From: Catellatospora paridis
GTDB taxonomy: Bacteria; Actinomycetota; Actinomycetes; Mycobacteriales; Micromonosporaceae
Direction: 5' to 3'
Assembly (NCBI RefSeq): GCF_009720365.1
Contig: NZ_WBZD01000016.1
Coordinates: 62,001 to 126,000, forward strand
Length of the DNA: 64,000 nucleotides
This document shows, piece after piece, positions 15,446 through 62,043 of the stretch. A model generated the notes under the pieces. The model was not told the origin of the DNA and made no database searches. It saw only the letters and a list, made by a program, of their open reading frames with translations. Positions within the stretch are counted from its first letter, which is position 1; each line of letters opens with the position of its first letter. A program made the translations under genes and the position numbers.

Positions 15446-15513
15446 AATAGACAGTGGCCTATCTGGATGACACTCCGGCGATCGGAGTCATCCAGATAGG
15501 CCAACGTCGATAG
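15446..15513. repeat. Inverted repeat family B, copy 1
   Basis: The left arm (15446-15478) and right arm (15484-15513) pair over about 29 bp with a few mismatches around a short loop. The core TGGCCTATCTGGATGA (left, with one substitution) and TCATCCAGATAGGCCA (right) is repeated at 60165-60230 with a different loop. Position is between the convergent ndgR and a small membrane gene, suggesting a shared terminator or mobile hairpin. Confidence 0.8.
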
Positions 15514-60164: not shown

Positions 60165-60230
60165 AATAGACGTTGGCCTATCTGGATGAGAATTTGTAGA
60201 TCAAACTCATCCAGATAGGCCAATGTCTAT
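60165..60230. repeat. Inverted repeat family B, copy 2
   Basis: Left arm 60165-60190 and right arm 60206-60230 pair over about 25 bp, core TGGCCTATCTGGATGAG with loop AATTTGTAGATCAAA. The arms are nearly identical to 15446-15513, but the loops differ. Between convergent genes. Confidence 0.85.
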
Positions 60231-60271: not shown

Positions 60272-60958
60272 TCAGAGCAGGGCGTACACCGCGGTCGCGT
60301 GGGCGACGAGCGCGCCCTTGGCGGTCATCGTGATGTCGGCGAACGCCATCGTCCGACCCAGCTTGGTCAGCCGGGCCGTGACCAGCACGTCGCTACCGAG
60401 CACCGGTCGCTGGAACGTCGTCGCCAGCTGCACCGTGGTCATCGGCACGAACCCGCCCCGGGCCGCGCTCACCGCGATCACCGTCGCCGTGTCCGCGGCC
60501 GCCATCAGTGCCTGCCCGCTCAGCGCGCCACCCTCCCGGGCCAGCCGGTCCGACCAGGGCAGCCGCAGGGTGGCCCAGTCGGGGCCGGTCTCCTGCACGG
60601 TCAGGCCCAGCTCCCGCACCCACGGGGCGAAGTTGTCGGCAAGGATGCGGTCCCCGTCGAGCGCCGGCGCCTCCTGCTCCACGCTGCCGCCCGCGACGCT
60701 GGGCAGCACCTGCACCTCGCCACCGCCGGCGATCGGCGTCTCCTGGCCCGACAGCACCCGGCAGTCCTCCCCGTCCACGTACACGTTGACGTAGCGGCGC
60801 AGCTCGCCCCGCTCGTCCCGGATGCGCCGGCCCAGCCGGGGCCAGCGCTGGTCGACCTCGTCCAGCACCGCGCGCAGCGTGCCGTCCGCCTGCACCTCGA
60901 GTTTGGACGCGCCGCCGACCTCGGTCCGCAGCGCGCCCGGCACCAGCACCGTGACCAT
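60272..60958 (-). CDS. MoaD/ThiS domain fused to PaaI-type hotdog thioesterase
   Basis: 228 residues, ATG 60958. Residues 1-91 are a MoaD/ThiS ubiquitin-like domain (TVLVPGALRTEVGGASKLEV, then YVNVYVDGEDCRVL, ending VQVLPSVAGG). Residues 92-228 are a hotdog domain of the PaaI type (EGGALSGQALMAAADTATVI, VQLATTFQRPVLGSDV). The Gly90-Gly91, normally C-terminal, is internal. ATG overlaps the TGA of the BNR gene (TGATG). No stop separates the domains. Confidence 0.82.
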   Translation of the reverse strand: MVTVLVPGALRTEVGGASKLEVQADGTLRAVLDEVDQRWPRLGRRIRDERGELRRYVNVYVDGEDCRVLSGQETPIAGGGEVQVLPSVAGGSVEQEAPALDGDRILADNFAPWVRELGLTVQETGPDWATLRLPWSDRLAREGGALSGQALMAAADTATVIAVSAARGGFVPMTTVQLATTFQRPVLGSDVLVTARLTKLGRTMAFADITMTAKGALVAHATAVYALL

Positions 60959-62043
60959 CAGATCCGGACCGCCCGCACGCTCAGCACGTCGGGCAGGTGC
61001 GCCGCGACGAGCGCCCAACTGTCGCCCTCGTCGGCGCTGGCGAACACCTCGCCGGTGCGGCTGCCGAAGTAGACGCCGACCGGGTCGCTGTCGTCGGCGC
61101 ACATGGCGTCGCGCAGCACGGAGGGGTAGAACGGGGCGGTGGGCAGCCCGTACGCCTGCGGGGTCCAGGTCTTGCCCGCGTCGGTGGTGCGGAAGACCCG
61201 GCACTTCGCGTCGACCGGGAAGCGCAGCGCGTCGGCGGTGATCGGGAAGTTCCAGGCGGTGCCGCCCCGGCGCGGGTGCGCCACCATCGCGAAGCCGAAG
61301 TCGCTGGGCAGGCTGTCCGCGATCGAGGACCAGGTCTGGCCGTCGTCGTCGGAGCGATACACCCCATGGTGGTTCTGCAGGTAGAGCCGCTCGGGGTCCT
61401 CGCCGTCGCGGGCCACCTTGTGCACGCACTGGCCGAACTCCGGGAACGGGTCGGGCAGGAAGCTCACCCGGATGCCGCTGTTGGACGGGTGCCAGGTCTC
61501 GCCGCCGTCGGTGGTGCGGTAGACGCCGCCGGTGGACATCGCCACCAGCACCCGCTGCGGGTCGGTCGGGTGCGGCAGGATCGTGTGGATGGCCTGGCCG
61601 CCGAATCCCTCGCCCCACTCGGTGCGGTGCGGGTGGTCCCAGAGGCTGCGGACGAGTTCGTAGGTCAGGCCGCCGTTGGTCGAGCGGAACAGGGCGGACG
61701 GCTGCGTGCCCGCCCAGACCACGTCCGGCTCGGCGGCCGAGCCCGGCTGCAGTGCCCACACCCGGCTCAGCGCCGTGTCGGTGTCCTGCGGGAACGCCAG
61801 CGGGGCCTGGTCCGGCTCGCGCCAGCAGACGCCCAGGTCGTCACTGGTCGCCACGCTCGGGCCGAAGTGCGAGCTGTCGACCGCCGCCAGCAGGCGGGGC
61901 GTGGCGCGGCGGGTGTCGACGCCGACCGCGTACACCCCCGTCATCGGGAACTGCGGCACGGACAGCTGCCAGGCGTCCCCGACCCGGTCCCGGCGGGCGA
62001 GGAACAGCCCCTTCGCCGTGCCTATGAGTAGCAGAACGGTCAT
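60958..62043 (-). CDS. BNR-repeat beta-propeller protein (sialidase-like)
   Basis: 361 residues, ATG 62043 with GAGG 7 nt upstream. Asp-box (BNR) repeats S-x-D-x-G-x-x-W occur as SDDLGVCW, TTDGGETW, SDDDGQTW, TTDAGKTW and SADEGDSW, plus STNGGLTY, about six or seven blades. No signal peptide. Catalytic residues of true sialidases are not evident, so enzymatic activity is unlikely or different. In actinobacteria this gene commonly lies beside a MoaD gene; here it is coupled to one fused to a thioesterase. Confidence 0.8.
   Translation of the reverse strand: MTVLLLIGTAKGLFLARRDRVGDAWQLSVPQFPMTGVYAVGVDTRRATPRLLAAVDSSHFGPSVATSDDLGVCWREPDQAPLAFPQDTDTALSRVWALQPGSAAEPDVVWAGTQPSALFRSTNGGLTYELVRSLWDHPHRTEWGEGFGGQAIHTILPHPTDPQRVLVAMSTGGVYRTTDGGETWHPSNSGIRVSFLPDPFPEFGQCVHKVARDGEDPERLYLQNHHGVYRSDDDGQTWSSIADSLPSDFGFAMVAHPRRGGTAWNFPITADALRFPVDAKCRVFRTTDAGKTWTPQAYGLPTAPFYPSVLRDAMCADDSDPVGVYFGSRTGEVFASADEGDSWALVAAHLPDVLSVRAVRI

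Follow-up and report, generated by a model that had tools for sequence, protein, structure and literature searches.

The protein encoded by the fusion gene described here joins a CysO-like sulfur carrier, through an internal Gly-Gly, to a complete hotdog thioesterase domain, and probably represents a pro-sulfur-carrier with a passenger thioesterase that would be cut after Gly91, most likely by the metalloprotease Mec. ThiS/MoaD-type sulfur carriers normally serve only when their Gly-Gly forms a free end. The gene lies in a 64,000-nucleotide stretch of the Catellatospora paridis genome (the window) and overlaps a BNR propeller gene whose relatives are repeatedly linked to similar carriers.

Results

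The frame of the fusion gene runs uninterrupted from the ATG at 60958 to the TGA at 60272-60274 on the minus strand (Table 1). The first-pass annotation of the window had described a MoaD-like domain with Gly-Gly at residues 90-91 and read-through into a second domain, and this is borne out by the open 228-residue frame and by a Pfam ThiS match over residues 4-91 (45.5 bits, cut-off 22.5), which makes the first half a beta-grasp sulfur carrier by profile. The protein extends 137 residues beyond the Gly-Gly, which would be the C-terminus of a product only if the protein is cleaved. Residues 144-215 match 4HBT (40.0 bits, cut-off 20.6), and the profile search of both halves proposed in the first-pass annotation thus gave ThiS and 4HBT, each over its cut-off. 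The second half had been described there as a PaaI-type hotdog: the protein passes the NCBIfam hotdog family TIGR00369 (39.6 bits, curated cut-off 36.6) and the predicted structure of this half matches hotdog thioesterases (Foldseek), while the PaaI equivalog TIGR02286 reaches only 18.3 bits against a cut-off of 118.9. The SAMP1 equivalog NF041918 scores 52.1 bits on the fusion protein, below its curated cut-off of 60. By sequence, the carrier half is CysO-like, the nearest solved structure being M. tuberculosis CysO (PDB 3dwg, 2.1e-13), and its predicted structure matches 3dwg with a Foldseek TMt of 0.86. At the junction, residues 91-98 have a pLDDT below 50 in the model, and the linker is predicted to be disordered and the junction flexible.

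Table 1. Positions of the fusion gene, its parts and the coupled propeller gene in the window
Feature	Position	Strand	Basis
Fusion gene, ThiS/MoaD (CysO-like) + hotdog thioesterase, 228 aa	60272..60958	-	Profile matches; kept in 16 genomes
Sulfur-carrier (ThiS/MoaD) domain, residues 1-91	60686..60958	-	Pfam ThiS; PDB 3dwg; Foldseek
Gly90-Gly91 codons, expected activation end, proposed cleavage site Gly91-Ser92	60686..60691	-	Invariant in 16 fusions
Linker, residues 92-101, variable in length and sequence	60656..60685	-	pN/pS, pLDDT, start-codon scan
Hotdog (4HBT, TIGR00369) thioesterase domain, residues 102-228	60275..60655	-	Profiles, model
Propeller stop/fusion start overlap TGATG	60956..60960	-	Sequence
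BNR/Asp-box propeller gene, 361 aa, PDB 3b7f relative	60958..62043	-	BNR profile, PDB match

The survey of related genomes, which had likewise been proposed, recovered the fusion in 16 of 301 Micromonosporaceae genomes, source genome included: 11 Catellatospora (every one sampled of the genus, counting the source), 1 Catelliglobosispora and 4 Hamadaea. Viral relatives were searched for and none were found. The 15 fused genomes besides the source come from independent assemblies and carry the identical frame. The suspicion that a sequencing error at the junction hides a stop codon present in other strains is thereby ruled out, since the frame is intact in 16 species. Purifying selection on both halves also speaks against a recent, functionless decay product; no support for either explanation was found, and we regard them as negligible.

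Across the 16 fusions, the linker has a pN/pS of 0.72-0.94 and evolves close to neutrality, whereas values of 0.25-0.34 in the carrier and 0.11-0.24 in the hotdog indicate purifying selection on each domain. Both halves are therefore in use. The stretch PSVA and the Gly90-Gly91 that follows it do not vary among the 16 fused species, and the Gly-Gly codons carry several silent changes and zero amino-acid changes. A carrier tail fixed up to Gly91 fits the expectation for a tail that ends as a free C-terminus. Translation could also start inside the fused frame and yield the two halves separately, and an in-frame GTG does occur within the linkers of some Catellatospora. No internal start codon is conserved in the linkers of the fused genes, however, and Catelliglobosispora and two Hamadaea species have no start codon at all between the Gly-Gly and the hotdog; internal initiation was rejected as a general mechanism for producing the hotdog and is, in our estimate, very improbable.

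Just downstream of the fusion gene, at 60166-60230, lies a long, nearly perfect palindrome (ATAGACGTTGGCCTATCTGGATGAG...) with an RNA fold z-score of -10, and a diverged second copy is found at 15447-15511. In certain Catellatospora species, though not in others, the fusion gene is followed by a similar palindrome whose inner stem differs, and this patchy presence suggests a dispersed or mobile palindromic repeat.

Related genomes hold the same parts unfused. In Allorhizocola the propeller, carrier and hotdog genes are adjacent yet separate and the carrier terminates in VIPSVAGG followed by a stop, an arrangement that looks like the state before fusion. At two Asanoa loci, the unfused carrier stops exactly at the Gly-Gly and the hotdog gene lies ca. 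6-7 kb away from the propeller-carrier pair. Outside the fused, Allorhizocola and Asanoa genomes the hotdog, ca. 70-80% identical, stands alone. No constant neighbor was seen among 69 loci with a free-standing hotdog gene, so its surroundings give no clue to function, and the Allorhizocola locus and the two Asanoa loci were the only ones of the 69 with propeller-MoaD within the fetched stretch.

These observations bear on two further explanations, both involving the hotdog half. In the first, the fusion would be permanent, and the attached ubiquitin-like domain would dock or regulate without cleavage, bringing the thioesterase to the propeller or the E1. Such a role would agree with the constraint on both domains, the retention of the fusion in 16 species, the coupling to the propeller gene, and the absence of a free copy of this hotdog among the matches listed in the fused genomes. 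Yet the exposed PSVAGG tail would be expected to drift if docking alone mattered, whereas it is invariant and the residues that follow it are near neutral, and the hotdog is unlinked to the propeller elsewhere, with the exceptions just named. We consider a permanent fusion unlikely, though it is the most serious competitor. In the second, the thioesterase would act on the carrier: partial cleavage would yield a second, free carrier, and the enzyme would hydrolyze, for example, an acyl or aminoacyl thioester formed at its Gly91. This is chemically plausible and the presumed catalytic Asp156 is conserved, but in most actinobacteria the hotdog has a gene of its own, remote from carrier genes, and a match to it is often missing in Micromonosporaceae whose carrier is free. 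Such an activity therefore seems improbable.

The first-pass annotation had also identified the upstream gene as a BNR propeller of at least six blades overlapping the fusion gene as TGATG, and both points were confirmed. The BNR repeats score 49.1 bits (cut-off 27), and the protein is a full-length relative (E 1.2e-73) of PDB 3b7f, a Ralstonia eutropha BNR propeller with seven blades and no assigned function (PMC2716378). Proteobacterial relatives adjoin MoaD/ThiS genes as well. Exo-alpha-sialidase, the name carried by propeller relatives, is an annotation only. The overlap is retained throughout the fused clade as TGATG, TAGTG, ATGA or GTGA, from which propeller and fusion protein would be expected to be made in a fixed ratio.

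In a sample across the phylum, 57 of 198 genomes contain the propeller. A carrier is located beside or fused to it in 40 of the 51 actinobacterial propeller loci examined, in accordance with the earlier statement that the propeller-MoaD pair recurs in actinobacteria. The remaining 11 loci lack a carrier: seven come from genomes of a single genus (probably Streptomyces) and four from other genomes. Propeller genes of this genus without an adjoining carrier gene are L119-L125 and L149, the last of these on a named Streptomyces plasmid. Burkholderiales and Pseudomonas plasmid records contain the propeller-carrier pair too, and in the two Rhodobacterales records that we read the propeller has no carrier annotated next to it. 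In eight genomes from three actinobacterial families (L133, L135, L136, L137, L142, L143, L144 and L146), a single gene joins the two proteins, the carrier coming first and its Gly-Gly forming the link to the propeller N-terminus. Because such independent MoaD-propeller gene fusions exist, there is strong evidence that the carrier and propeller proteins work together. Every one of the 127 propeller-linked carriers examined has the Gly-Gly. Two of these carriers (L174 and L200) bear tails of 22 and 25 residues after it, with no evident homology. No constant third gene near the pair was noticed by eye with a crude gene caller, and nothing on the pair was found in the literature library searched.

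Four ThiS-family carriers score over the cut-off in the source genome: ThiS, MoaD, CysO and the fusion. The separate ThiS ends in Gly-Gly and adjoins a gene that reads as ThiG; the separate MoaD also ends in Gly-Gly and overlaps a MoaA-like gene; CysO sits between Mec and CysM (contig C10), neither of which lies beside the fusion gene. The propeller-linked carrier is thus a fourth sulfur carrier. The remark that no other molybdopterin gene is present holds for the window, but the genome does hold molybdopterin genes elsewhere, and since a MoaD-like gene already overlaps a MoaA-like gene there, a role of the fused carrier in molybdopterin synthesis is unlikely. The first-pass annotation had thus missed the dedicated ThiS, MoaD and CysO elsewhere in the genome, the CysO-like nature of the carrier and the second kind of MoaD fusion.

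The CysO of the source genome continues for 13 residues past its Gly-Gly (AFGLAAAAAVLGR), and a fairly conserved tail of this kind was present on CysO at all 15 Micromonosporaceae Mec-CysO-CysM loci read (L264, L269-L276, L278-L280 and L283-L285). With a tailed CysO beside Mec in addition to the fusion, this lineage appears to make pro-carriers routinely. Mec is the single JAMM protease of the source genome (103.8 bits), and a JAMM protease is present in every fused genome. A ThiF/MoeB-type E1 was found on contig C24 (ThiF family, 284.8 bits), and an E1 is present in 42 of 42 genomes tested. Two points count against Mec as the protease: its gene is away from the fusion gene (contig C10 versus C7), and the protease in the study of MoaX, a related fusion discussed below, is unnamed.

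If JAMM removes the residues after the Gly-Gly, JAMM-negative genomes should show an exact Gly-Gly end. Loci with residues after the Gly-Gly occur in 43 of 77 JAMM-positive genomes, a sample chosen in part because tails were suspected, and in 0 of 50 JAMM-negative genomes (Fisher p 7e-13). The propeller tree shows a single main loss of JAMM, parsimony places four gains of a tail on it, and 42% of the tail-less branch length falls in JAMM-negative clades; the tree-corrected chance of zero tail gains in the JAMM-negative part is p = 0.11. After this correction we rejected the correlation, which rests on essentially one JAMM-loss clade, as proof of processing. The pattern agrees with the cleavage model.

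Discussion

Between the cleavage and the new role that the first-pass annotation had left side by side, we weighed both and favor cleavage after Gly91, based on the invariant PSVAGG, the near-neutral linker, the JAMM protease in all fused genomes, a CysO that is likewise capped there, and the independent MoaD-GG-propeller fusions. In the proposed mechanism, the gene would encode a pro-sulfur-carrier in which an entire thioesterase domain caps a CysO-like protein with the ubiquitin fold. Cleavage between Gly91 and Ser92 would most likely fall to Mec, the only JAMM metalloprotease that the genome encodes, and the freed carrier would be adenylated and then thiocarboxylated at Gly91 by the ThiF/MoeZR-type E1. 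We infer that this carrier would work with the co-translated propeller, and the released hotdog would be an ordinary free thioesterase. More tentatively, and with somewhat more doubt than confidence, the propeller-linked CysO-like carriers of Actinobacteria and Proteobacteria may constitute an as yet unassigned fourth bacterial ubiquitin-like/sulfur-carrier pathway with a dedicated propeller, in which recurrent linear pro-fusions to a thioesterase or a propeller would be freed by a deubiquitinase-like JAMM protease.

The closest known relatives in layout are MoaX of M. tuberculosis and the Deinococcus MoaD-MoaE fusion DR2607, in which a MoaD-type carrier with an internal Gly-Gly is likewise N-terminal. 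The cleavage site of MoaX falls between Gly82 and Ser83, a Gly-Ser junction as in the present fusion, and activity depends on this cut (PMC4326299), while the Deinococcus fusion is cut by DRJAMM (PMC8832034). Replacing the MoaX residue equivalent to Gly90 abolishes cutting. In both, the second domain is the natural partner MoaE, whereas here it is a 4HBT hotdog and not MoaE, and the carrier is CysO-like and propeller-linked. The capped carriers of the QbsE/QbsD and PtmS2/PtmS1 systems also have residues after the Gly-Gly and a JAMM protease and ThiF/MoeZ-type E1 in the genome; in thioplatensimycin-producing Streptomyces, where capped carriers are present, loss of the JAMM gene stops production (PMC6006322). 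The fusion differs from these in having a full domain as its cap and in the position of the JAMM gene, which is at another locus, next to CysO. For the carrier half, the closest solved structure comes from the CysO-CysM-Mec cysteine pathway, but in the source genome a separate CysO accompanies Mec and CysM, and the fusion sits with the propeller. The fusion takes these precedents beyond short caps and natural partners, to an enzyme domain unrelated to the carrier, and it points to a widespread carrier-propeller pair without assigned function.

Eukaryotic ubiquitin is made as an N-terminal fusion to unrelated ribosomal proteins with Gly-Gly at the joint. The layout is alike, although the present carrier belongs to a bacterial sulfur-carrier lineage and its cleavage is proposed only. 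The fusion offers a clean natural substrate for testing whether bacterial JAMM proteases generally process linear ubiquitin-like fusions, a role that would parallel that of deubiquitinases in eukaryotes.
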